This document shows positions 5,336 to 17,445 of a stretch of DNA of 64,000 nt, one piece after another. The stretch's first letter is position 1. Each line of letters opens with the position of its first letter. A program made the translations under genes and the position numbers. This DNA is from Nitratireductor basaltis. GTDB lineage: Bacteria > Pseudomonadota > Alphaproteobacteria > Rhizobiales > Rhizobiaceae. Where the stretch lies: positions 62,001 to 126,000 of the forward strand of contig NZ_JMQM01000003.1 of NCBI RefSeq assembly GCF_000733725.1, read 5' to 3'. Below the pieces are notes generated by a model, which saw only the letters and a program-made list of their open reading frames with translations, had not been told where the DNA came from and did not search any database.

Positions 5336-5363
5336 TTGACATCTCAATATGAATGGTTAGCAT
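5336..5363 (+). promoter_or_regulatory. Candidate sigma-70 promoter for the GntR gene
   Basis: TTGACA at 5336-5341 matches the -35 consensus and is followed after 16 bases by TAGCAT at 5358-5363 (four of six -10 positions). Transcription would begin near 5370, which leaves a short leader with AAAGGAG at 5371-5377 and supports translation from the ATG at 5383 rather than the one at 5353. Confidence 0.5.
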
Positions 5364-5382
5364 CTTACCCAAAGGAGCAGCC

Positions 5383-6189
5383 ATGTACGATCCTTCTTCG
5401 CCATTCACCAGCGCCACGCCGTTCAAGCCCTCACAGAAGGCTGATTTTGCGGAAGAGCGGCTGCGCGCCGCGGTTCAGTGGTGCGAGCTTCTGCCCGGTG
5501 AAATGGTGGGTGAACAGGATCTGGTTGAGCGTTTCGGGTTGGGGCGTGCCGGTGTGCGCGCGGCGCTTGCCAAACTTGCCGTGACCGGCATGGTCGAGGC
5601 GGTGCCGCGTGCAGGCTGGCGTATTCAGCCGATCAGCGGCGCCTTGATCGGCAATGTCATTGATGCACGCCGTCTCGTCGAGCCGGCCATGGCCAAGGTC
5701 GAGCTCTCGCCCGAACAGGTTCTGCGGGCACGCGAGATGCAAAGCGTGATCTCTGCGCTCGTACAGTCCGGTGATCATGGTGCGGCACAGACCGCCTCCC
5801 AGGAATATGGCCGCGAGGTTCTCGAGCTGGTGCGAGCCGGCGTCAATCCGCTTGTCGGAAATCTTCTGGGAGAGCTTTGGGACCAGAGCGAGCGCATCGT
5901 GCGCTTCCTCGAACTCAAAGGCAGCAAGACTTTTGCGGTGGTGGATGCAGGTCCGTTGCTGGAGGCGCTTCTTGCCCGTGATCCGGCTGCGATCCTGATG
6001 CAGCGCAAGAGCGACATCGACCGCTTCGAACGCCATATGACCGCGTGCCTGTTCCGCGACGACACGGCAATTGCGGCATCCTCGACAAAACAAAACAATC
6101 GGCCGGCTGATAATGCCGAGCCCAAGAAAACTTCAACTGGGAACATAAGCGAAAAATGGGAGACCGGAGATGACAAATACTTCGAATAG
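5383..6189 (+). CDS. GntR-family regulator of the peptide/amide operon
   Basis: A 268-residue regulator with an N-terminal winged helix (RFGLGRAGVRAALAKLAVTGMVE) and an alpha-helical ligand domain of the FCD type. It opens the operon and overlaps the first binding-protein gene by 20 bases, so it probably controls its own transcription unit, most likely as a ligand-relieved repressor. The ATG at 5383 has AAAGGAG six bases upstream. The last 30 or so residues are polar, asparagine/lysine-rich and probably disordered. The effector is unknown; by context it should be the imported compound or a breakdown product. Confidence 0.8.
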   Translation: MYDPSSPFTSATPFKPSQKADFAEERLRAAVQWCELLPGEMVGEQDLVERFGLGRAGVRAALAKLAVTGMVEAVPRAGWRIQPISGALIGNVIDARRLVEPAMAKVELSPEQVLRAREMQSVISALVQSGDHGAAQTASQEYGREVLELVRAGVNPLVGNLLGELWDQSERIVRFLELKGSKTFAVVDAGPLLEALLARDPAAILMQRKSDIDRFERHMTACLFRDDTAIAASSTKQNNRPADNAEPKKTSTGNISEKWETGDDKYFE

Positions 6190-7681
6190 CAGGATTCTTG
6201 GCGCGCTTGCGCTCGCGCTGTCACTGAGCACCGCACTGCCCGGCATGGCCGAGGCGAAAGAGGTTCTGACGATCGATCTCGTCAATGAGCCTGCCACGCT
6301 GGACCCGCACAAGCAGTGGAATCCGGACAGCTACTACGTATACCGCAACATTTTCGACAATCTCGTCACTCGTGATGATGCTGGCGAAATCATGCCGCAG
6401 ATCGCCACCGAGTGGGACCAGATCTCCGACACGGAAGTCGTCTTCACAATCCGCGACGACGTGATGTTTCACGATGGTGAAAAACTGACGCCTGAAGACG
6501 TGGTCTTCACGGTCAAGCGCATCACCGACCCGGCTTTTGCCAGCCCGCAGCTCGGCCAGTTCGACAAGATCGTCGAAGCCGAGGTGATGGAAGGCAACAA
6601 GGTCAAGCTGACGACGGACGGACCTTACCCCGCACTTCTGGCGCAGCTCGTGAAGCTGTCCATCGTGCCGGAACATGTGGTCACGGAAGTTGGCGATGAT
6701 GCGTTCAATGCCAATCCGGTTGGCAGCGGGCCCTACAAATTCGCGAGCTGGAACCGCGGCGTCGACGTGAAGCTTGAGCGCAACGACGAATATTGGGGCG
6801 AGAAGGGCGTTTTCGAAAGTGCGGTCTTCCGTGGCGTGCCGGATGCTTCGACCCGTCTGGCCAATCTGCAGGCAGGCACCGCCGACCTCGTCGTGACGCT
6901 GAACGCCGATCTGGCACAGCAGCTTGAAGCCAGCGGCCGCGGCAAGGTCATGACGGTCAACACCGAGCGCGTTGCCTATTTCGCCATGAACAGCGCGCTT
7001 GAGCCGCTCGACAACATGGAGCTGCGCAAGGCGATCGGCTATGCAATCGACCGCGAAGGCATCGTGGAAGGCCTGCTTGGCGGCTACCCGAAGGTGGTGG
7101 ACGAGCTCGTCTCTCCCGCACATTTCGGCTGGGTCGATGGCGTTGAAGGCTTCAGCTACGATCCCGATCAGGCAAAGGAGATCATCTCCGGTCTGGGCGA
7201 GGATGCAAAGCAGACTATGAAGCTGGCGACTTCGCCGGTATTTGATCAGCGCGTCGTCCAGGCCATCCAGCAGATGCTCACCGATGTGGGCTTGAGCGTC
7301 GAGATCGAGACCACCGATATGGCCACCTGGCTGAAGGACCAGCAGACGACGCCGGACCAGGCGCCGATGCTCACTTTCAGCCGCTGGTCCTGCGCCTGTC
7401 AGGATGCGGACGGCATCATGTATCCGCTGCTTCACTCATCGAGTGCCTGGTCACGCTTCAATGACGGCGAAATCGACAAGCTGCTCGATGACGCACGCAG
7501 TGAGCTGGATGTCGAGAAGCGCCAGCAGCTCTACGCGGATCTGCACGATCTCGTGATCGACAAGGTAGCGATCCTGCCCCTCTACCAGGCCGCAATCATC
7601 TATGGTGGCGCAGAAGCGCTTGAATGGCAGCCCACCTCGAATGAAAGCCTGTTCCTCAACCGTATGGGCTGGGCGGAATAA
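6170..7681 (+). CDS. Family 5 periplasmic binding protein, copy 1 (peptide/opine type)
   Basis: This 503-residue exported protein has a basic N-terminus and hydrophobic core ending in GMAEAKE, a signal peptide. It is a DppA/OppA-type (SBP family 5) receptor, with the family signature around TPEDVVFTVKRI and the NPVGSGPYKF hinge region. It delivers solute to the permeases at 9254-11043. It is strikingly similar along its whole length to the next gene product. The start overlaps the end of the GntR gene by 20 bases, with GGAG a few bases before the ATG. Substrate unknown; the operon enzymes suggest a peptide-like or amide-linked molecule. Confidence 0.88.
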   Translation: MTNTSNSRILGALALALSLSTALPGMAEAKEVLTIDLVNEPATLDPHKQWNPDSYYVYRNIFDNLVTRDDAGEIMPQIATEWDQISDTEVVFTIRDDVMFHDGEKLTPEDVVFTVKRITDPAFASPQLGQFDKIVEAEVMEGNKVKLTTDGPYPALLAQLVKLSIVPEHVVTEVGDDAFNANPVGSGPYKFASWNRGVDVKLERNDEYWGEKGVFESAVFRGVPDASTRLANLQAGTADLVVTLNADLAQQLEASGRGKVMTVNTERVAYFAMNSALEPLDNMELRKAIGYAIDREGIVEGLLGGYPKVVDELVSPAHFGWVDGVEGFSYDPDQAKEIISGLGEDAKQTMKLATSPVFDQRVVQAIQQMLTDVGLSVEIETTDMATWLKDQQTTPDQAPMLTFSRWSCACQDADGIMYPLLHSSSAWSRFNDGEIDKLLDDARSELDVEKRQQLYADLHDLVIDKVAILPLYQAAIIYGGAEALEWQPTSNESLFLNRMGWAE

Positions 7682-7702
7682 TCTGCCACGCTTGAAAAGC
7701 GC

Positions 7703-7728
7703 GCGTGTGCCATGAAACTGGCACACGC
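7703..7728 (+). other. Intergenic RNA hairpin between the two binding-protein genes
   Basis: A perfect nine-base stem, GCGTGTGCC at 7703-7711 and GGCACACGC at 7720-7728, closes an eight-base loop. There is no T-run, so it is more likely an mRNA-stabilising or attenuating structure than a terminator. The ATG at 7712 lies in the loop, which argues for the downstream start at 7751. Confidence 0.6.
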
Positions 7729-7750
7729 AATCCAGCCAAGGAGTATATCC

Positions 7751-9250
7751 ATGCGTATCCGCACCGCTTTGCTGGCCGCTACCTGTGCGATGATTTTCGC
7801 TCAGCCGCTCGGCGCGAAGGAACTTCTGACGATCGATCTCGTCAACGAGCCGACCACGCTTGACCCGCACATGCAGTGGAATCCGGACAGCTACTATGTC
7901 TACCGGAACATTTTCGACAACATCGTCACCCGCGACAATGATGGCAAGATCGTGCCGCAGGTGGCCGAAAGCTGGGAGCAGATTTCCGATACGGAACTCG
8001 CTCTGACGATCCGCGAAGGCATCAAGTTCCACGACGGTTCGGACTTGACGGCTGAGGATGTCGCTTTCTCGGTGAAGCGCATCATCGACCCCGAATTCGC
8101 AAGCCCCCAGCTTGGTCAGTTCAACAAGATCACGGACGCACGCGTCGAAGGTGACAACAAGGTCGTTCTCGTAACCGATGGTCCTTACCCGGCGCTGCTC
8201 GCACAGCTCGTGAAGCTGTCGGTGGTGCCAAAGGCCGTTGTCGAGGAAGCCGGCAAGGATGGCTTCAATGCCAATCCGGTGGGTTCCGGCCCCTACAAGT
8301 TCGGCGAACAGCAGCGCGGCGTGTCGGTCACGCTCGTGCGCAACGACGACTATTGGGGCGAGAAGGGCGAGTTCGAGGAAGCCGTCTTCCGCGCGGTTCC
8401 CGATGCGGCAACACGCGTTGCCAATCTGAAGGCCGGTACGTCGGACCTCGTCGTGAGCCTCGATTCCGATCTGGCGCTCCAGCTTGAAAACGACCCGCAG
8501 GTTCAGCTTCTGACCGCTCTGACAGAACGCGTCGGCTTCATGGGCATCAACACAACCCGCGAGCCGCTGGACGACCCGGAGCTTCGCAAGGCGCTCGCCA
8601 TGGCGATCGACCGTGAAGGTATCGTGGAAGGCATTCTGGGCGGCGGCGAGAAGGTTGTTTCGCAGATGGCGACCTCGGCGCATTTCGGTTATGTCGAAGG
8701 CATCGAGCCGATCCCTTACGATCCCGAGCAGGCAAAGCAGATTGTCGAGGCCGCAGGTGATGCGGCCAAGACCAAGATGGAATTTGCCACGGCTCCGGTC
8801 TTCGATCAGCGTATCGTCCAAGCCATCCAGCAGATGCTCAATGATGTCGGCTTCAATGTCGAGATCAACATGTCGGACATGGCAACCTATCTGAAGACGG
8901 TGCAGCAGCCCGAACAGGGAAGCCGCCCCTACCTCTCCTTCGGTCGCTGGTCCTGCGCCTGTCAGGATGTTGACGGCGTACTCTTCCCGCTTCTGCATTC
9001 CGGTTCCAACTGGTCGCGCGTTTCCAGCGAGACGATCGACGAGGCACTTGAAACCGGTCGTTCCTCACTCGATGAGCAGGAGCGCCTGGACGCATACAAG
9101 ACCGTGCATCAGCTGGTCCACGACGAGACGCTCATCCTGCCGCTCTACCAGGCAGCCGCACTTTACGGTGGTGCTGCAGAACTGGAATGGGAACCGACGG
9201 CGAATGAGAGCCTCTTCCTCAACCGCATGAGCTGGAAAGAACAGGAATAA
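7751..9250 (+). CDS. Family 5 periplasmic binding protein, copy 2
   Basis: A 499-residue paralogue of the preceding protein. Both mature regions share NPDSYYVYRNIFDN, FASPQLGQF, DGPYPALLAQLVKLS, NPVGSGPYKF and a RWSCACQD motif. The signal peptide runs from the ATG at 7751 to about QPLGAKE. AAGGAG at 7739-7744 supports that start. Two receptors with one permease pair suggests two related ligands or different affinities. The conserved CxC pair in RWSCACQD occurs in both and may form a disulfide or bind something; this is inference. Confidence 0.88.
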   Translation: MRIRTALLAATCAMIFAQPLGAKELLTIDLVNEPTTLDPHMQWNPDSYYVYRNIFDNIVTRDNDGKIVPQVAESWEQISDTELALTIREGIKFHDGSDLTAEDVAFSVKRIIDPEFASPQLGQFNKITDARVEGDNKVVLVTDGPYPALLAQLVKLSVVPKAVVEEAGKDGFNANPVGSGPYKFGEQQRGVSVTLVRNDDYWGEKGEFEEAVFRAVPDAATRVANLKAGTSDLVVSLDSDLALQLENDPQVQLLTALTERVGFMGINTTREPLDDPELRKALAMAIDREGIVEGILGGGEKVVSQMATSAHFGYVEGIEPIPYDPEQAKQIVEAAGDAAKTKMEFATAPVFDQRIVQAIQQMLNDVGFNVEINMSDMATYLKTVQQPEQGSRPYLSFGRWSCACQDVDGVLFPLLHSGSNWSRVSSETIDEALETGRSSLDEQERLDAYKTVHQLVHDETLILPLYQAAALYGGAAELEWEPTANESLFLNRMSWKEQE

Positions 9251-9253
9251 GGC

Positions 9254-10183
9254 GTGGTCGTCTTCCTAGCAAAAAGAGCGGGCCAGGCACTGGTCGCGAT
9301 TTTCGGGGTCATGACGCTGGTGTTCTTCATCCAGCGTCTGACCGGCGATCCGACCTATCTGCTGGTGCCTGAAACCGCCACTCAGGAAGACATCGAGGCC
9401 ATGCGTCAGTCGCTTGGCCTCGACCGTCCCCTGCTGGTTCAGTATCTGTCCTTTCTGGCAGACATCGTCCGCTTCGACCTCGGGCGCTCCTTCATCCAGA
9501 ACATCCCCGTGACGGATATCGTCGCCTCGCGCCTGCCCTATACGTTGCAGCTTGCCGGTGGTGCGCTGTTCGTCGCCTTCGTGATCGGGCTGCCGATCGG
9601 CCTGATCCTGGCGCTGGCGCGCAAATACAAGAGCTCCAACATCCTGATGGGTGTCGTGCTTGCCGCCCAAAGCCTGCCGACCTTCTGGAGCGGCATATTG
9701 ATGATCATGGTGTTCGGCGTCTGGCTCGGCTGGCTTCCGCCGTCCGGTTCGGGAACATTTGCGCATCTGATCATGCCGTCGATTGCGCTCGGGCTGCTGT
9801 CCATGGCGACCTATGCCCGCATCGCGCGCTCTTCCGTTCTTGATGAACTCTCCAAGGATTATGTGCGCTCCGCGCGAGCCCGCGGCGTGCCGCAGGGCCG
9901 CCTCGTGCGCCGCCACCTCCTGCGCAACTCGGTCATACCCGTTATCTCCATCACGGCTCTTGAAATCTCCCAGCTTCTGGCTGGCGCGGTGATCGTCGAG
10001 ACGGTGTTCGCCTGGCCCGGCCTGGGGCTGCTGACCGTCCAGTCCGTCGTCGCTCGCGACTTCGTCGTCGTCCAGGGCGTGGTGCTTCTGGGTGCCTTCG
10101 TCACCATCGCGGTGAACTTCATCGCCGACATACTCTACAGCGTGGTCGATCCGCGCATCAGGCTGGACGGAGCGGGCCAATGA
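9254..10183 (+). CDS. ABC permease, DppB type
   Basis: A 309-residue inner-membrane permease with the N-terminal segment and TFFIQRLTGDP-like start of DppB/OppB proteins (here VFFIQRLTGDP), six predicted membrane segments, and the EAA-like loop DYVRSARARGVPQGRLVRRHLLRN around residues 200-222. It starts at GTG 9254, three bases after the second binding-protein stop, so the operon is continuous. It pairs with the DppC-type permease downstream, with a four-base ATGA overlap at 10180-10183. Confidence 0.9.
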   Translation: MVVFLAKRAGQALVAIFGVMTLVFFIQRLTGDPTYLLVPETATQEDIEAMRQSLGLDRPLLVQYLSFLADIVRFDLGRSFIQNIPVTDIVASRLPYTLQLAGGALFVAFVIGLPIGLILALARKYKSSNILMGVVLAAQSLPTFWSGILMIMVFGVWLGWLPPSGSGTFAHLIMPSIALGLLSMATYARIARSSVLDELSKDYVRSARARGVPQGRLVRRHLLRNSVIPVISITALEISQLLAGAVIVETVFAWPGLGLLTVQSVVARDFVVVQGVVLLGAFVTIAVNFIADILYSVVDPRIRLDGAGQ

Positions 10184-11043
10184 CGACACTCATCAACCGC
10201 ATCCGCCCGATCTTCCTGTCGTCAGGCAGCGGCGTTCCAACCGGCTTCTTTATCGGTGTGGTCGCACTGATGGTGATTGTCGCGATCTTTGCCCCCTGGA
10301 TCGCGCCTTATGACCCCAATGCGCAGAACCTGCTTGGGCGTCTGAAGGCACCGGGCACAGAAGCGCGCAACGTCCTCTATGTCCTGGGCTCGGATGAGCT
10401 TGGCCGCGATCTGCTAAGCCGGCTCATCTATGGGGCCCGCATCTCGCTGTCGGTAGCGTTTCTTTCGGTCATCCTCTCGGGCTGTGTGGGCATCCTGCTC
10501 GGCATGCTGGCCGGTTATCGGCGGGGCTGGGTCGAAACCGTCATCATGCGCCTGGTCGACATCTTCCTGTCGGTCCCGGCGATCCTCCTTGCGATCATCA
10601 CGGTCGCGGTTCTGGGACCTGGCTTCGTCAATGTGATCCTCGTGCTCGCACTGACCCGCTGGCCGCGCTATGCCCGTGTTGCCTATGGCCAGACACTCTC
10701 GGTCGCAGGGCAGCCCTATGTGCGCCTGGCGCGGGCAATGGGTGCCAGTTGGGGTCGCATTCTGCTTCTGCACATCCTGCCGAACATCATCGCTCCGCTC
10801 TCGGTCGTCGCGACGCTGGAATTCGGCCTGATGGTGCTTTTCGAAGCGGGTTTGTCCTTCCTTGGCCTCGGTGTTCAACCGCCAACCGCAAGCTGGGGCG
10901 CGATGCTTTCGGTGGGACGCAATTACGTCTCCAACGCCTGGTGGATCGCCACCTTTCCCGGCCTCTGTCTTTTCATGCTCGTGCTTTCGGTCAACCTGAT
11001 CGGTGACCGGCTGAGCGAATATCTCAACCCGAAATCACGGTGA
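10180..11043 (+). CDS. ABC permease, DppC type
   Basis: The 287-residue partner permease has the long first periplasmic part containing the DppC signature GSDELGRDLLSRLIYGARISL (about residues 69-89), followed by membrane segments and an EAA-type loop (YVRLARAMGASWGRIL). With the DppB-type subunit it forms the inner-membrane channel for the two binding proteins. The stop overlaps the start of the SDR gene by four bases (GTGA at 11040-11043), so transport and catabolic genes are tightly coupled here. Confidence 0.9.
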   Translation: MTTLINRIRPIFLSSGSGVPTGFFIGVVALMVIVAIFAPWIAPYDPNAQNLLGRLKAPGTEARNVLYVLGSDELGRDLLSRLIYGARISLSVAFLSVILSGCVGILLGMLAGYRRGWVETVIMRLVDIFLSVPAILLAIITVAVLGPGFVNVILVLALTRWPRYARVAYGQTLSVAGQPYVRLARAMGASWGRILLLHILPNIIAPLSVVATLEFGLMVLFEAGLSFLGLGVQPPTASWGAMLSVGRNYVSNAWWIATFPGLCLFMLVLSVNLIGDRLSEYLNPKSR

Positions 11044-11840
11044 TACCTATGGAATTCGGCAATCATTTCGAGGGCCGTCGCGTGGTCCTGACCGGTGCTG
11101 CAGGTCTTTTCGGCAGCGGTCTTGCCAAGGTCTTTGCAGCACATGGCGCAAAACTCTGCCTCACGGACCGCAACCAGCAGGATGTCGAGAAGGTACTCGG
11201 CGAGATCGAGGCTCCGGCAGGAAGCTTCGCCCATGCGGCCGAACTGACCGAGAAGGACTCCATGCAGGCCCTTGTCGATGCGGTTGGCGAGAAGTGGGGT
11301 GCTGCAGACATCGTCATCAACAATGCGGCGATCTACCCCTCCGGCTTCATGCTCGACATCGAGCTCGAAGACTGGGATCGAATGATGAACATCAATCTGC
11401 GCGCGCCCTATTTTCTCACGCGGCAGTTCTCGCGCCAGATGATCGATCAGGGCGTGAAGGGCAACTTCATCAATATCGGCTCAGGCGCCTCGCGAAAGAT
11501 GCGTCTCACCGTTGCCCCCTACTGCATCTCGAAATCCTCGCTCGACCGCCTCACCAAGGGTTGGGCGCAGGAACTCGCGCAGTTCGGCATCCGCGTCAAT
11601 TCGCTCGAGCCCGGCTTCTCTGCCGGCAGCACCGTCAGCCATCTTTCAGACGAACACATCAAGCGGGCAACTGCGGCAGTGCCTCTTGGCCGTGCTTCCT
11701 CCATAGAAGATATCGGTCCGGCAGCACTCTATCTGGCATCGGACTTCGCAGCCTATGTCACCGGCGCCACGATGACCGTGGACGGCGGCAATTCGCTTGG
11801 CTCAATGGATGTATACCAAGACAAGAAGAGGCCGCTTTGA
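11040..11840 (+). CDS. Short-chain dehydrogenase in the peptide/amide operon
   Basis: The 266-residue SDR has a cofactor motif TGAAGLFGSG (about residues 17-26), NNAA near 95-98, catalytic YCISK near 160 and the C-terminal TVDGGNSLGS. A GTG start at 11040 overlaps the permease stop; an ATG three codons later (11049) is equally possible. It is presumed cytoplasmic and to oxidise or reduce a hydroxyl or keto group of the imported compound. Substrate unknown. It is followed two bases later by the deacetylase-like gene. Confidence 0.82.
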   Translation: MIPMEFGNHFEGRRVVLTGAAGLFGSGLAKVFAAHGAKLCLTDRNQQDVEKVLGEIEAPAGSFAHAAELTEKDSMQALVDAVGEKWGAADIVINNAAIYPSGFMLDIELEDWDRMMNINLRAPYFLTRQFSRQMIDQGVKGNFINIGSGASRKMRLTVAPYCISKSSLDRLTKGWAQELAQFGIRVNSLEPGFSAGSTVSHLSDEHIKRATAAVPLGRASSIEDIGPAALYLASDFAAYVTGATMTVDGGNSLGSMDVYQDKKRPL

Positions 11841-11842
11841 CC

Positions 11843-12727
11843 ATGAAGATGCCCGCTCCCTACAAGTGGCCCGAAGGCAAGAAGGCGGCCTTTTGCTTCA
11901 GCGTCGACGTGGACGCCCATTCACCGTGGATGTGGAACAACCGCAACGACCAGCCGCAGCTTCTCTCCCATCTCGAGCAGCGCCATTTTGGCCCGCGCGT
12001 CGGACTGCCACGCATTGTCGAGATGCTGGACAGGCTTGGCGTCAAGGGCAGCTTCTTCGTCCCTGCCGCCGTCGCCGAGAAATATCCCGACATGCTGCCT
12101 TCGCTCGTCGAAGGGGGCCACGAAATAGGCCTGCACGGCTATTTCCACGAGCTCGTAAACCAAACGAGCGACGAGGAATTTACGCGCATGCTCGAAGCCT
12201 CCATCGCGCTGTTTGAAAAACAGGTCGGCTTCAAGCCTGCAGGCTTCCGTTCTCCTGCCTGGGAAATGACCCCGCATATGGTGGCCGAGATCAGGAAGCA
12301 CGGCTTCTATGATAGCTCGCTCATGGGCTACGACACGCCTTATGAAGTCGATCAGGTGACCGAGGTGCCCGTCAACTGGAGCACGGATGACGCGATCTTC
12401 TTCAAATTTCTGGGCGGTGCGGGCTTCGACATGTGGCCGCCGGTCGGCACCGACCGTGTGCTCGCCGCATGGACGGACGAACTTGACGCGCTTCATGACG
12501 CGGGCGCGCTCTTCATGCTGACCATCCACGACTGGATCTCCGGCCGCGCGCCGCGCACCGTCATGGTCGAGAAGCTGCTTCAGGACGTGCTCTCGCGCTC
12601 CGATCTCTGGGTCGCGACGGTCGGTGAAGTGGCTGCCCACCATGAAGCGGAGAACAAGGGCGCGAATGAGGTCGGCATCGACATTCCCGCCCCCATGTTC
12701 GACCACCCAGCCTGGAAAGGTGAATGA
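11843..12727 (+). CDS. Polysaccharide-deacetylase-fold amidohydrolase
   Basis: A 294-residue NodB-homology protein with no signal peptide, hence cytoplasmic. Metal and catalytic motifs are visible: SVDVDAHS near residues 20-27 (aspartates), the HGYFH metal pair at 98-102, and GFRSPAWEMTP replacing the usual RxPY motif. These features place it with PuuE/HpPgdA-like members that act on small amides or peptidoglycan rather than with chitin deacetylases. The ATG at 11843 follows the SDR stop by two bases. Its stop overlaps the GGT-like start (ATGA). It probably removes an acyl or carbamoyl group from the imported compound; this is inference. Confidence 0.8.
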   Translation: MKMPAPYKWPEGKKAAFCFSVDVDAHSPWMWNNRNDQPQLLSHLEQRHFGPRVGLPRIVEMLDRLGVKGSFFVPAAVAEKYPDMLPSLVEGGHEIGLHGYFHELVNQTSDEEFTRMLEASIALFEKQVGFKPAGFRSPAWEMTPHMVAEIRKHGFYDSSLMGYDTPYEVDQVTEVPVNWSTDDAIFFKFLGGAGFDMWPPVGTDRVLAAWTDELDALHDAGALFMLTIHDWISGRAPRTVMVEKLLQDVLSRSDLWVATVGEVAAHHEAENKGANEVGIDIPAPMFDHPAWKGE

Positions 12728-14286
12728 TGCAAACCTGGCAGATCAAGAAGGGCCAGCTTTCCAGCGACAAGGGTGTTGTCGCAGCCCAGCATTTCGAGGC
12801 AGCCCGCGCGGCAGCCGACGTGCTGGCCCGCGGTGGCAATGCGATGGACGCGGCTGTCACCTGCGCGCTCGCACTCTCCGTGGTCGAGCCCTGGCTGAGC
12901 GGTGTCGGCGGTGGCGGCTTCCTGCTTTACGGCGATGGCAAGACGGGTGAAGTCGACACGCTCGACTTCAATGTCCGCGCCTCGCGCAATATCGATCCCG
13001 CACGATATCCGCTCGTTGAAGGCAATGACGGCGAATGGTTCAACTGGCCGGCGGTCAAGGATGACCGTAACATTATCGGCTACGAATCCATCTGCATTCC
13101 CGGTGCCGTCGATGGCCTGGCGCAGGCGCTTGAGAAATACGGCACGATCAGCTTCGCAGAAGCCGTCCAGCCTGCCATAGAACTTGCCGAGCGCGGCATG
13201 ATCGTCGACTGGTTCACCGCCTTGTGCTTCGCCATCGATGCACGCGGCCTTGCCCGCTACGAGCATTCCGCAGAACTCTTCCTTGAAGACGGAATGCCGA
13301 TCCGCACTCCCGCGTCCGGTGGCGCGGAATATCTGCCGATGCCCGCCAAGGCTAGAATGCTGAAGCGGCTTGCCGAAGCCGGTCCCCGCGACTTCTATGA
13401 AGGCCAGACTGCAAGTCAGATCGTGGAAGATCTCAAAGCAGGCGGCAATGTGATCGACGCACAAGACCTGGCAGGCTTCTCATCACGCTGGGCAAAGCCC
13501 GCAACGGCGAGTTACCGCGACACCGAGATAAATGTGATCGCGGACCTCTCCGGCGGTCCGAGCTTCATCCACGCCATGGCAGAAGTGGAAGCCAAGCTTG
13601 ATGTGACGAAGCGCCCGGATGCTGCCGCTTCCCGGCTCTATGCGCAGGCGATACGCCGTGCCTACGAGTACCGCCTGCAGAACATGGGACATGCCGCCAG
13701 GCGCGAGGACTGCACCAGCCACATGTCGGTGGTGGATTCCGAGGGCAACATGGTGTCGCTGACCAACACGCTGCTCTCGCGCTTCGGCTCCAAGGTGACG
13801 CTGCCACAGACCGGCATGCTGATGAACAACGGCATGATGTGGTTCGACCCGCGTCCGGGTGCGGCCAATGCGATTGCACCCGCAGCACAGCCGCTCGCCA
13901 ATATGTGTCCCGTTCTCTTCCGCAAGAACGGCAAGCCATATCTGGCTATAGGTGCAGCCGGCGGACGGCAGATCTTCCCTGCCCTCGTTCAGCTTTCATC
14001 CTATGTCATCGACTATGGCATGAATCTCGAAAATGCCTTCCACGAGCCTCGCATAGACGCCAGCACGCCGACCATTCTGGTCGACCGCATGGCGCAGACC
14101 GATGTGGCAGCGGCAATCGCTGAGGACTTCCCGGTGAAGATCGTGTCGAATACGCTTCATCCGGTGAATTTCGCAATCCCCTCGGCTGTTCTGCGCGACG
14201 CGGAGGGCATGCATCACGGCATGAGCCACCCAAGCAATCCATGGGCCGGCGTGGCCGGGGAGGGCGATGATGGCAGCAGCGGTTGA
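12724..14286 (+). CDS. GGT-like Ntn hydrolase with altered substrate pocket
   Basis: This 520-residue protein belongs to the gamma-glutamyltranspeptidase family, which self-cleaves to expose a catalytic threonine. That residue is T331 in the motif TSHMSVVD, and the oxyanion GAAGG is at 410-414. No signal peptide is seen, so it is cytoplasmic, unlike most GGTs. Residues that hold the gamma-glutamyl group in E. coli GGT are changed: the R-E-x-A-P segment reads FNVRAS (82-87), NNQMDDF reads NNGMMWF (368-374) and PLSSM reads PLANM (390-394). True GGT activity is therefore doubtful; another amide bond is more likely. It lies between a deacetylase-like gene and the transporter ATPases. Confidence 0.82.
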   Translation: MMQTWQIKKGQLSSDKGVVAAQHFEAARAAADVLARGGNAMDAAVTCALALSVVEPWLSGVGGGGFLLYGDGKTGEVDTLDFNVRASRNIDPARYPLVEGNDGEWFNWPAVKDDRNIIGYESICIPGAVDGLAQALEKYGTISFAEAVQPAIELAERGMIVDWFTALCFAIDARGLARYEHSAELFLEDGMPIRTPASGGAEYLPMPAKARMLKRLAEAGPRDFYEGQTASQIVEDLKAGGNVIDAQDLAGFSSRWAKPATASYRDTEINVIADLSGGPSFIHAMAEVEAKLDVTKRPDAAASRLYAQAIRRAYEYRLQNMGHAARREDCTSHMSVVDSEGNMVSLTNTLLSRFGSKVTLPQTGMLMNNGMMWFDPRPGAANAIAPAAQPLANMCPVLFRKNGKPYLAIGAAGGRQIFPALVQLSSYVIDYGMNLENAFHEPRIDASTPTILVDRMAQTDVAAAIAEDFPVKIVSNTLHPVNFAIPSAVLRDAEGMHHGMSHPSNPWAGVAGEGDDGSSG

Positions 14287-15268
14287 GAACGAAGCAGCCA
14301 CCGCACTTCAGGTCGAGGATCTGAAGGTCTCGATCGGCGGCAAGATGGTCGTCGATGGCGTGGATCTTGAAGTCGGACAGGGCGAGATCGTGGCCCTGGT
14401 CGGTGAGAGCGGCTCGGGCAAAAGCCTGAGTGCCCTTTCGATCATGGGGCTCCTGGCTGGAAATCTGGAACGTTCAGCAAAATCGATCAGGCTCGGCGAC
14501 GAGGCCATCGAGACCTATGGCGATGCCCGGATGCGCCATCTTCGCGGCGATGCCATGTCCATGATTTTCCAGGAACCGGTGGCCTCTCTCAATCCGCTGA
14601 TGAGTGTCGGTGAACAGGTGTCGGAAAGCCTTGTGGTCCACGGCCATGCCTCGAAGGACGAGGCCTGGGACAAGGCGGTGAAGATGCTGGCCGATGTCGG
14701 CATCCCGGAACCGGAACGCCGCGCGCGCCAGTTTCCCGCGGAACTCTCCGGCGGCATGTGCCAGCGTGTCATGATCGCTTCGGCCCTCATCGCCCGCCCT
14801 CGCCTGCTGATCGCCGATGAGCCGACGACTGCACTGGACGTGACCATTCAGGCGCAGATCCTGGAACTGATGAAGCGCCTTCGCGACGAGACCGGTACAT
14901 CCGTTCTCATCATCACGCACGATATGGGTGTTGTTGCCGCCCTCGCCGACAAGGTCTGTGTCATGTATGGCGGGCGCATCGTTGAACAGGCGGAGGTCTA
15001 CGAGATATTCCGCAATCCCTCGCACCCCTACACGAAGCTCCTCCTTTCAACGATCCCCAAGCTCGGCGGGGCGCGCAAGGAAGCGCTGTTCTCGATCAAG
15101 GGCACCGTGCCCGATCTGAATTCCTGGCCGGAAGGTTGCCGCTTTCGCACGCGCTGCCCGCTGGCGGACGAGAAATGCGCCGAGCGGCCGCCCTTCCTGC
15201 CCGTGAATGGCGAAGGCGATCACCGATCCGCATGCTGGCACATGGACAGGCTGGAGGAACTCGCATGA
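14267..15268 (+). CDS. ABC transporter ATPase, DppD type
   Basis: The 333-residue ATPase has Walker A GESGSGKS near residues 46-53, signature LSGGMCQR near 163-170 and Walker B LLIADEP near 184-190. The C-terminal oligopeptide-transporter extension contains the cysteine cluster CRFRTRCPLADEKC, which in DppD/DppF proteins binds an iron-sulfur cluster. It overlaps the GGT-like gene by 20 bases and the next ATPase by four (ATGA at 15265-15268). It drives the permeases at 9254-11043. Placing catabolic genes between permease and ATPase genes shows that import and breakdown are one unit. Confidence 0.9.
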   Translation: MMAAAVENEAATALQVEDLKVSIGGKMVVDGVDLEVGQGEIVALVGESGSGKSLSALSIMGLLAGNLERSAKSIRLGDEAIETYGDARMRHLRGDAMSMIFQEPVASLNPLMSVGEQVSESLVVHGHASKDEAWDKAVKMLADVGIPEPERRARQFPAELSGGMCQRVMIASALIARPRLLIADEPTTALDVTIQAQILELMKRLRDETGTSVLIITHDMGVVAALADKVCVMYGGRIVEQAEVYEIFRNPSHPYTKLLLSTIPKLGGARKEALFSIKGTVPDLNSWPEGCRFRTRCPLADEKCAERPPFLPVNGEGDHRSACWHMDRLEELA

Positions 15269-16263
15269 GCCGCGAAACAATTCTCTCCGTCCGCAATCTG
15301 AAGGTTCATTTTCCGGTCAAGGGTGGCATCAACCGCCCCTCCGGCACGGTGAAGGCAGTCGATGGCGTCAGCTTTGATGTCCAGGCAGGCGAGACGGTTG
15401 CCGTTGTCGGCGAGTCCGGTTGCGGCAAGTCAACCACGGGCAACGCGATCCTGAGCCTCGCGCCCATCACCGCAGGTGAAGTGCATTTCAACGGTCAGGA
15501 CATTGCCCGCATGAAGCCTGCCGAGCGCAAGACGCTGTGGCGTGATCTTCAGGTTGTCTTTCAGGACCCGGTCTCCGCGCTCAATCCGAAACGGACCATC
15601 GCGCAATCCATCGCCGAACCGCTGGCGATCAACGGCTACAGCCGCAAGGAACAGGACGCGCGGGTGGACGAACTGGTGGCGCTCGTAGGCCTGAACCAGA
15701 GCCAGCGCGACCGCTATCCCAACGAGCTTTCCGGCGGTCAGCGCCAGCGCGTCGTCATAGCGCGCGCGCTTGCGCTCAATCCGAAGCTGGTCATCTGCGA
15801 CGAGCCTGTTTCCGCCCTCGACGTCTCCATCCAGTCGCAGATCCTCAATCTGCTGATGGAGCTCCAGGAGCGGCTGGGGCTTTCCTATCTCTTCATCTCG
15901 CACGACCTGTCAGTGGTCCGCCATCTCGCAGACCGCGTGATCGTGATGTATCTCGGCACGATCGTCGAGGAAGCGCAAACGGACGAGCTCTTCACAAATC
16001 CGCGCCATCCCTATACGCGCGCACTGTTGAGCGCCATTCCGGAGCCCGACCCCGTCGTCCAGCGTGCAAAGAAGCCCATCCCCTTGCAGGGCGAACTGCC
16101 AAGCCCGCTGAACCCGCCCGCCGGATGTCCGTTCGTCACGCGTTGTCCGCTGCGCGAAGAAGCATGCAGCACGATCAGGCCGGAGCTGACGCCCGATCCG
16201 ACTTCGCCCACCCATCACTTCGCCTGCCTCGTCGAAGCGCGGGCAGTGCCCGTGAACGTCTAG
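15265..16263 (+). CDS. ABC transporter ATPase, DppF type
   Basis: The 332-residue partner ATPase has Walker [13 protein letters not shown] near residues 51-62, signature [15 protein letters not shown] near 156-170, Walker [13 protein letters not shown] and the C-terminal [14 protein letters not shown] cysteine motif. The ATG at 15265 overlaps the previous stop; longer upstream frames would run through the DppD gene and are not credible. With the DppD subunit it completes the importer. The gene ends 36 bases before the amidohydrolase gene. Confidence 0.9.
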
Positions 16264-16299: not shown

Positions 16300-17445
16300 A
16301 TGGATCTCGCACCGATCGTCAATGATGCACGCCAATGGCGCCGTCATCTGCACCAGATGCCCGAACTGCAATTTGTCGAGCACAAGACCGCCGATTTCGT
16401 CGCGGAGAAACTCGCCTCCTTCGGGCTTGAGGTACATCGCGGCATGGGTGGCACCGGCGTTGTTGCGGTCATAGATGGCAAAGGTCCAGGCAAGAACATT
16501 GCACTGCGCTGCGAGCTCGACGCCCTTCCGATCGAGGAACAGACAAATGTGGAATATTCCTCGCGCAATGAAGGCGCGATGCATGCCTGTGGACATGACG
16601 GGCATATGTCCATGCTGCTTGGCGCTGCGCGCAGCCTGAGCGAGAACCGCGACTTTGGCGGGACCGTCACGGTTATCTTCCAGCCCGCCGAAGAATTCGG
16701 CGGTGGCGGCAACAAGATGATCGAGGACGGCTTGTTCGAGAAGTTCCCGGTCGACGAAGTCTACGCCATTCACAACATGCCGGGCGTGAAGGCAGGTCAG
16801 GTCGCGGCCCTTGCAGGCCCGGTCATGGCGGCCGCGCGCAGCTGGGACCTCATCATCCGTGGCAAAGGCGCTCACGCAGGCTGGCCGCATACGGGCATCG
16901 ACGGCATCGCCATCGCCCATGACTTCACCAGCGGCTGCAACACCATCGTCGCGCGCGAGACCGACCCGGTCGAGGCAGTCGTCATCTCGCCAACGCAGAT
17001 CCATGCCGGCACCAACTACAATGTGGTACCCGAAGTGGTGAAGGTCGGCGGCACGATCCGCACCTTGAGCAACGAATCCATGGCAATGGTCATGGACAAG
17101 ATGCGCCAACTTGCGAAGGGCCTTGCCATCGCCAAGGGCTGCGAGATCGAGCTGGACATCCATGAAGGCTATCCCGTCACGGTCAACCATGCGGCACAGG
17201 TGGATGCGGCATTGCAGATCGCCCGCGATACTTTCGGAGCCGACGCCGTGGACGAGGAAGTCGCGCCAAAGATGGGCACGGAAGATTTCAGCTACATGCT
17301 GGCGAAAAAGCCCGGCGCCTATATCTTCCTGGGCTCTGGCGACACTGCCCCGCTGCACAATCCCAAATACGACTTCAACGACGACATCCTGGAGCGCGGT
17401 ATCGGGCTGCTCGCAAGCCTCGCACGCAAACGAACGGCCGCCTGA
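16300..17445 (+). CDS. M20 family amidohydrolase (hippurate/N-acyl amino acid hydrolase type)
   Basis: A 381-residue cytoplasmic di-metal hydrolase. It carries the metal and catalytic motifs ACGHDGH (96-102), PAEE (129-132), HAGWPH (near 187-192) and GTEDFSYM near the C-terminus. The family splits N-acyl or N-aroyl amino acids and related amides. AGGAGG at 16285-16290 gives a strong ribosome site. As the last gene of the operon it probably releases an amino acid from an intermediate left by the other hydrolases. Exact substrate unknown. Confidence 0.87.
   Translation: MDLAPIVNDARQWRRHLHQMPELQFVEHKTADFVAEKLASFGLEVHRGMGGTGVVAVIDGKGPGKNIALRCELDALPIEEQTNVEYSSRNEGAMHACGHDGHMSMLLGAARSLSENRDFGGTVTVIFQPAEEFGGGGNKMIEDGLFEKFPVDEVYAIHNMPGVKAGQVAALAGPVMAAARSWDLIIRGKGAHAGWPHTGIDGIAIAHDFTSGCNTIVARETDPVEAVVISPTQIHAGTNYNVVPEVVKVGGTIRTLSNESMAMVMDKMRQLAKGLAIAKGCEIELDIHEGYPVTVNHAAQVDAALQIARDTFGADAVDEEVAPKMGTEDFSYMLAKKPGAYIFLGSGDTAPLHNPKYDFNDDILERGIGLLASLARKRTAA

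Follow-up and report, generated by a model that had tools for sequence, protein, structure and literature searches.

In our study, we examined a window of 64,000 nucleotides from Nitratireductor basaltis (contig NZ_JMQM01000003.1, positions 62,001 to 126,000), in which a gene related to gamma-glutamyltransferase (GGT) lies within a run of eleven co-directional genes. A GntR regulator (5353) opens the run and an M20 amidohydrolase (17445) closes it. The reading frame of the GGT-like gene begins with an ATG at nucleotide 12724 and its stop codon ends at nucleotide 14286 of the plus strand, exactly as placed by an initial annotation of this DNA. The encoded protein of 520 residues was found to retain the catalytic residues of the GGT fold, whereas the pocket that holds the glutamyl group in GGT is rebuilt. 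We consider, with a probability of roughly 0.62, that the protein is a cytosolic GGT-fold N-terminal nucleophile (Ntn) amidohydrolase, which is no longer specific for gamma-glutamyl groups and acts on an imported peptide-like amide. This reading is favoured because the glutamyl site is lost throughout the clade, the clade is separated from the canonical GGTs and the gene belongs to a conserved uptake operon.

The GGT-like protein scored 323.7 bits against the Pfam model PF01019 (gathering score 27) and is thus a member of this family. Its scores against TIGR00066 (281.7 bits) and NF007187 (201.5 bits) were under the cut-offs of these NCBIfam equivalog models, 357.85 and 990, respectively. Within the GGT fold superfamily, the protein is best placed in a clade of its own that is still uncharacterised, and it should not be filed as a GGT. 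An N-terminal signal peptide was not visible in a hydropathy scan, used here in place of SignalP; the highest 12-residue mean hydropathy within the first 45 residues was 0.84, against 2.08 in E. coli Ggt, and was 2.2-2.3 in the two solute-binding proteins of the operon. The absence of a signal peptide, claimed earlier, is borne out by this value.

The sequence of Ggt from E. coli K-12 MG1655 (L126) was used for comparison. BLASTP and profile alignment gave the same residue map, with 30% identity over 484 aligned positions in BLASTP. The nucleophile T391 corresponded to T331, the helper Thr409 to T349 and the oxyanion G483/G484 to G413/G414. None of the six glutamyl-binding residues was kept; R114 was substituted by N83, N411 by L351, Q430 by G370, D433 by W373, S462 by A392 and S463 by N393. 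The alignment, proposed as a check by the initial annotation, gave the residue map claimed there: T331 and the oxyanion glycines are retained, the replacements N83, W373, A392 and N393 were correctly read, and L351 and G370 are added to them here. The site of the TxH motif was TSH and that of the TXN motif was TLL. Relative to the E. coli protein, a 10-residue stretch of the lid loop was missing, as was a stretch of about 40 residues before the nucleophile. The assignment of the E. coli residues to the groups of the glutamyl moiety is in part general knowledge. For the rest, it follows three publications (PMC4568574, PMC8062742, PMC6769717).

The conservation of these positions was studied in an alignment of 72 sequences (A3), composed of the window protein and 71 of the 80 loci that were fetched with the pattern LMNNGMM. 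The 80 loci were the best 80 of 200 relatives and came from named genome records; L051, L068, L079, L089, L090, L099, L106, L107, and L109 were left out of the alignment. The pattern fixes residues 366-372, hence positions 370-372 give no independent evidence, and positions 83, 351, 373, 392, 393, and 415 lie outside it and are independent. T331, H333, T349, G370, M371, M372, W373, N393, G413, G414, and R415 were invariant in all 72 sequences. Arg was found at position 83, and Asn at position 351, in none of them. Position 392 was variable, with Ala in 42 sequences, Ser in 13, Cys in 11 and Thr in 6. A pseudoenzyme, or a protein that only assists the deacetylase-fold protein encoded upstream without catalysis of its own, is extremely unlikely. 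The loss of the glutamyl pocket and the existence of two related operons without the gene would agree with this, but the nucleophile, the helper Thr and the oxyanion glycines do not vary in any of the 72 sequences, which is not expected of a dead enzyme. Arg415 (13966..13968), which adjoins the oxyanion glycines, was invariant as well, and Ser is present at this position in the canonical GGTs that were read. Arg415 is a possible new carboxylate ligand.

In 16 relatives beyond A3, position 373 was occupied by Trp in 13 and by Tyr in 3, so Trp373 marks the clade and not its sister group. A survey of 20 hand-picked genes of the GGT superfamily found the canonical R/N/E/D/S/S set in 12 and other sets in 8. 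The maximum-likelihood tree contained 56 rows, including 18 of the 71 relatives in A3. The Trp clade (32 rows) formed one side of a branch with support of 99/97, and the Trp clade together with three Tyr-type rows and L222 was split from 13 canonical GGT rows with support of 100/99. Long branches were found in L206, L216, L217, and L222, among the unassigned rows. On the evidence of these sequences, namely the invariance in A3, the pocket survey and the split in the tree, the rebuilt pocket is an old and stable feature of a clade.

Family, catalytic residues, pocket, conservation and operon were read from sequence, and the fold was taken from prediction. The AlphaFold2 model, built with A3 as input, had a mean predicted local distance difference test score (pLDDT) of 91.1 and a predicted template modelling score (pTM) of 0.93. 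In a Foldseek search of the PDB, the first matches by E-value were the GGT precursors 2e0w and 4y23, and the highest TM-score over the model was 0.85, to the GGT-related protein 2i3o of T. acidophilum. A structure model had also been proposed as a check, and this high-confidence model matches GGT-family structures along its length. LmbA2991 (6j3i, 6j3a) was found at ranks 10-12, and CapD and HpxW (5HFT, rank 50) were likewise ranked below the first matches. The ranks of LmbA2991, and the fact that its chemistry is established in the GGT fold, raise the reading that the protein cleaves a carbon-carbon bond in the manner of Ant6 and LmbA2991, the acyl group being oxalyl or a different 2-keto group. 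This is highly improbable, as no oxidase of the type that makes the LmbA substrate was found among the ten operon proteins scanned and the gene context is one of uptake and amide hydrolysis.

The order of the operon was GntR, two solute-binding proteins, OppB, OppC, a short-chain dehydrogenase/reductase (SDR), the deacetylase-fold protein, the GGT-like protein, OppD, OppF and M20 (Table 1). Pfam and NCBIfam scans covered ten of the operon proteins. Eight of the ten junctions were between -20 and +3 bases, the remaining two being 30 and 36 bases; from SDR to OppF, the junctions were +2, -4, -20, and -4 bases. The relatives of the OppF protein sit after OppD in the operon loci and are annotated as oligopeptide/dipeptide ATPases. 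The M20 protein scored 352.5 bits against TIGR01891, above the cut-off of 153.75. Elsewhere, the solute-binding genes were present as one gene, a tandem pair or a divergent copy; the window contains a tandem pair (6170-9250).

Table 1. Genes of the operon and pocket codons of the GGT-like gene (window coordinates; fractions of 43 refer to loci with at least 50% identity, and those of 72 to alignment A3).
Feature	Position	Strand	Basis or remark
GntR-family regulator, operon head, open reading frame from first ATG	5353..6189	+	PF00392; 39/43 loci
Peptide-type solute-binding protein 1, N-terminal hydrophobic segment	6170..7681	+	PF00496
Peptide-type solute-binding protein 2, 63% identical to protein 1	7712..9250	+	family scans
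OppB-type permease	9254..10183	+	family scans; 42/43 loci
OppC-type permease	10180..11043	+	family scans; 42/43 loci
SDR, 266 residues, GTG start	11040..11840	+	family scans; 42/43 loci
Polysaccharide-deacetylase-fold hydrolase (HpPgdA/PuuE-like), 294 residues	11843..12727	+	PF01522; directly upstream of GGT-like gene, ATGA overlap
GGT-fold Ntn hydrolase, 520 residues	12724..14286	+	PF01019 match, AlphaFold2 model; ATGA overlap with preceding gene
Asn83 codon, replaces E. coli Arg114 (alpha-carboxylate ligand)	12970..12972	+	N 35, G 34, S 3 of 72
Thr331 codon, predicted nucleophile and autocleavage point (Cys330/Thr331)	13714..13716	+	T in 72/72
Leu351 codon, replaces E. coli Asn411 (amino-group ligand)	13774..13776	+	L 59, M 13 of 72
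Gly370-Met371-Met372-Trp373 codons, replace E. coli Gln430-Met431-Asp432-Asp433	13831..13842	+	W373 in 72/72
Ala392-Asn393 codons, replace E. coli Ser462-Ser463	13897..13902	+	N393 in 72/72
Oxyanion Gly413-Gly414 and Arg415 (E. coli Ser485) codons	13960..13968	+	invariant, 72/72
OppD-type ATPase, 20-base overlap with end of GGT-like gene	14267..15268	+	family scans; 40/43 loci
OppF-type ATPase, start from ATGA overlap (mechanical open reading frame: 15136)	15265..16263	+	by relatives, not family scan
M20 amidohydrolase, 36 bp after OppF, optional operon member	16300..17445	+	TIGR01891; 9/43 loci

The operon was conserved in other genomes. Among the 43 loci with at least 50% identity, some of which end at contig ends, the deacetylase-fold gene was directly upstream in 42, the SDR and the OppC and OppB genes were present in 42, solute-binding proteins in 41, OppD in 40, GntR in 39 and M20 in 9. 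The only one of these loci without the operon was L060, a contig of a metagenome-assembled genome. None of the 37 loci with less than 50% identity had a deacetylase-fold gene upstream in the same orientation; in L072, L073, and L080 of this group the gene was adjoining, on the opposite strand. The adjacency in 42 of 43 against 0 of 37 loci suggests one isofunctional set. The order of the operon was repeated on annotated plasmids of Microvirga ossetica, Rhizobium tumorigenes, Agrobacterium leguminum and a Paracoccaceae strain, and the operon was split in two on the A. tumefaciens plasmid pAtCFBP5877a. Optional neighbours were RidA (L112, L117) and an amidohydrolase and an M81 gene, each in 9 of 50 loci; the nearest model of this amidohydrolase was Xaa-Pro dipeptidase, at 246.5 bits and under the cut-off of 500. 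The locus L069, titled Mycobacterium sp. KBS0706, had the same operon layout as Inquilinus limosus (L067, L068) and nearly equal identities to the window, and its name or assembly may be wrong.

In the range of 39-42% identity, seven plasmid loci with annotation were taken from the best matches; they are a non-random set, and the two from Pseudochrobactrum are near-identical. All seven contained an Opp-type ATP-binding cassette (ABC) transporter in the run of the GGT-like gene. An M20 metallopeptidase was directly downstream in six, and the seventh contained two amidases and an M81 gene instead. The Pseudochrobactrum loci add an enolase-family protein annotated as o-succinylbenzoate synthase, and the Salipiger locus adds a D-serine ammonia-lyase. 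Uptake and hydrolysis of peptide-like amides is the theme of the gene context in this wider clade. Among the loci with less than 50% identity, many of them from marine Gammaproteobacteria, no consistent partner of such kind was seen.

In six other genomes that carry the core SDR/deacetylase-fold/GGT-like/OppD/OppF, several further PF01019 genes were found in each. In these genomes, 29 of the 30 loci L223-L252 were read (all except L240), three of which were the operon gene itself. The canonical R/N/E/D/S/S pocket was present in L223, L224, and L225 (G286, G245, and G159, respectively), and an R/E/E/D/S/S pocket, with Glu at the N411 site, in L227 and L228 (G129 and G271, respectively). Glu at this position is given for the B. 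subtilis GGT in a review (PMC8062742/PMC6769717). No canonical pocket was found among the loci read in G311. Five of the six genomes therefore have a separate R/x/E/D/S/S GGT, and the GGT-like enzyme is no substitute for GGT there. At the glutamyl-binding positions, five or more distinct sets of residues were found among the paralogs, some of which had a Ser...His-Thr pocket. These sets and those of the pocket survey suggest that the GGT fold in Alphaproteobacteria has diverged into several types of pocket, and each of them probably has a substrate of its own.

The record of one ortholog carries the label 'Acylase ACY 1', and class IV cephalosporin acylases are GGT relatives in which Asp433 is changed to Asn, as stated in a review (PMC8062742/PMC6769717). 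An acylase of this kind, which would deacylate a beta-lactam-like or other acylated compound, is nevertheless very unlikely here. The label comes from a single record, the residue at this site is Trp373 and not Asn, and the paralogs with Asn at the Asp433 site (4 of the 29 readable loci of the six genomes) fit the class better.

The deacetylase-fold protein encoded directly upstream had its best PDB matches in 3rxz and H. pylori HP0310 (3qbu), followed by 1z7a and other PuuE-type entries. A signal peptide was not seen in its hydropathy scan. HP0310 contains the metal triad Asp14, His86, and His90, and the aligned Asp and both His were present in the window protein, the triad numbers being matched by eye to the phmmer alignment with 3qbu. 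HP0310 is reported to be without a polysaccharide groove and to be a likely binder of small molecules, and the substrate of PuuE is called a small cyclic imide in the same source. The label of PuuE allantoinase itself was rejected for the neighbour, which scored 55.5 bits against TIGR03212 (cut-off 424.6). On four plasmids chosen by eye, its relatives at 34-39% identity adjoin a gene for an isoaspartyl peptidase/asparaginase (L127, L129) or an amidase (L128, L132); the isoaspartyl peptidase/asparaginase is an Ntn hydrolase, but of another family than the GGT-like protein. In L127 (4501-9739) and L129 (4483-9755), the order of the genes was GntR, creatininase family, ketopantoate-reductase-like, SDR, deacetylase-fold and, immediately following it, isoaspartyl peptidase; an ABC transporter is encoded divergently. 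The SDR of L127 was dropped as an ortholog of the window SDR, at 29% identity. The SDR and deacetylase-fold genes were also found in L130 and L131, with no GGT-like gene in view.

A wider sample covered 40 of 42 regions around deacetylase-fold relatives in the class. Creatininase-family genes were present in four of them, HyuA/B-like genes in four and a GGT-like gene in one (L163). In L073 (16995-20758), a HyuA/HyuB-like pair lies near the deacetylase-fold gene that adjoins the GGT-like gene, and the nearest models of this pair were caprolactamase subunits, below cut-off. A two-step amide route is favoured for the operon, and the context of the neighbours weakly supports it.

Several observations weigh against an amidohydrolase with a new substrate and against its coupling to the neighbour. 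Asparaginase and amidase seeds were found in none of the 40 deacetylase-fold regions, and 31 of the 40 had no amide-hydrolase seed; the part of the substrate on which the deacetylase-fold protein acts may be an unrelated one. In L164 and L165, two of the 40 regions, the SDR, deacetylase-fold and OppD/OppF genes are present without a GGT-like gene between them, so the step is dispensable there or done by another enzyme. By eye, the further neighbours in L164 and L165 resembled a TauD-type dioxygenase, and in L165 also an AstE-type deacylase. No solved structure close in sequence was found in the PDB, where the matches had 20-29% identity. The GGT-like gene is the sole PF01019 gene found in a search of the window genome, hence the enzyme could be its only GGT. 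The pocket residues can also be changed singly. According to published work (PMC8062742, PMC6769717), R109S of the B. licheniformis enzyme (BlGGT) keeps 85% activity, D433N of the E. coli enzyme (EcGGT) keeps 82% of hydrolysis, D445A of the B. subtilis enzyme (BsGGT) has 40% hydrolysis, S460A and S461A of BlGGT raise the activity, and in GtGGT of an extremophile the natural residues are Ser at the Arg site and His-Thr at the Ser-Ser site. The same sources report no detectable activity for EcGGT R114L and R114D, a decrease of 91% for BsGGT D445Y and about 1% for a Ser to Ala change in human GGT.

The main rival is that the protein is still a gamma-glutamyl hydrolase, that is, a cytosolic Ggt for imported glutathione or gamma-glutamyl peptides with a divergent but working pocket. 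Its precedent is the GisABCD-Ggt system of S. aureus, in which, as described, five genes encode an ABC importer and a cytosolic Ggt that cleaves reduced and oxidised glutathione (GSH and GSSG) (PMC10355420). The window operon resembles this system in that an ABC importer and a GGT-family enzyme without signal peptide are encoded in one operon, and the absence of a signal peptide therefore does not exclude GGT activity. The S. aureus system differs in that cleavage of GSH/GSSG was shown for its Ggt. The GtGGT pocket, the activities left in BlGGT R109S and EcGGT D433N, and the lack of a second GGT in the window genome also speak for this rival. The glutathione-binding GsiB model was among the matches of the solute-binding proteins, but their scores of 156 and 144 bits fell far short of the cut-off of 594. 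On the other side, the ligands of the amino group and of the carboxylate are changed together, Trp is invariant at the Asp433 site, five of the six other operon genomes have a separate GGT, and the SDR and deacetylase-fold partners would have no obvious role with glutathione. We regard continued gamma-glutamyl hydrolysis as possible but unlikely. Since single changes are tolerated in some GGTs and since GtGGT and the S. aureus importer-Ggt pairing exist, the pocket evidence for a new substrate is strong and not decisive. The earlier proposal of an Ntn amidase for a different substrate thus stands as the most likely reading, but the pocket argument on which it was based is by itself weaker than was claimed.

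For the amidohydrolase with a new substrate, we infer the following course from the genes and the model, including the autoprocessing, the cytosolic location, the amide cleavage, the order of the steps and the kind of substrate. An Opp/Dpp-type ABC importer would supply the cell with a small amide, either peptide-like or cyclic. The precursor would cleave itself before Thr331 and free the Thr nucleophile, which would attack the amide carbonyl with the assistance of the oxyanion glycines 413-414, and water would then release the acid. The rebuilt pocket would hold the acyl group in place of the lost Arg/Asp/Ser-Ser set, through Leu351, Gly370, Trp373, and Asn393, and Arg415 or Arg85 may pair with a carboxylate. 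The coupled deacetylase-fold hydrolase probably either makes the substrate or receives it, and the substrate is perhaps the ring-opened product of that enzyme. The SDR and M20 enzymes would act on the products.

A more specific proposal is speculative and, taken as a whole, doubtful. In this undescribed route, the deacetylase-fold enzyme would open an imported cyclic amide, and a Thr hydrolase of the GGT fold would then cut the linear half-amide. The glutamyl pocket of this hydrolase would have been remodelled in a single event at the origin of a large proteobacterial clade, with the invariant Trp/Asn pair at its centre. An imide, a lactam or a cyclic-dipeptide-like compound are candidates for the cyclic amide, and the wider sample of deacetylase-fold regions gives weak support to the idea. 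No paper on the operon of this clade or on a GGT/deacetylase-fold route was found in the open-licence literature. The public records name these proteins 'gamma-glutamyltransferase', and our data suggest that the name is wrong for the whole clade. The conserved operon is a handle for assigning the clade, as its solute-binding proteins could reveal the substrate.

The canonical GGT, which we take to be MEROPS family T03 and EC 2.3.2.2, shares with the window protein the fold, the nucleophile Thr, the TxH motif, the equivalent of Thr409 and the GxxGG oxyanion motif of E. coli Ggt. The window protein differs from it in the six replaced glutamyl residues and in the absence of the lid loop, of the stretch of about 40 residues and of a signal peptide. 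HpxW (5HFT), presumably an oxamate amidohydrolase and an amide hydrolase of purine breakdown, shares the GGT fold with the window protein, and the sequence match was weak (E 5.9e-10). Purine breakdown also uses a PuuE-type allantoinase.

The window protein resembles the GGT branch B2, which includes B. halodurans 2NLZ, T. acidophilum 2I3O, GtGGT and YwrD, in the absence of the lid loop and in altered residues at R114, N411 and Ser-Ser. Clade-specific changes at these positions of branch B2 are described by Verma and others (PMC4568574); there and in the other sources (PMC8062742/PMC6769717), Tyr/Phe is given at N411 beside the Ser and His-Thr residues of GtGGT. In the Bact4ext and Arch clades of B2, TTH is substituted by aromatic or hydrophobic residues and TXN by SXY/F (PMC4568574). 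Unlike these clades, the window clade keeps TSH/TTH and has the Trp/Asn residues, and the window protein has TLL at the TXN site. Cleavage of a carbon-carbon bond is described for the GGT homologs Ant6 and LmbA2991; LmbA and Ant6 are reported to be without gamma-glutamyl activity, and the native role of LmbA2991 is unclear according to its paper (PMC6085292, PMC5519988). The window protein is like these two actinobacterial proteins in the GGT fold and the Thr nucleophile, and probably also in a function other than gamma-glutamyl transfer.

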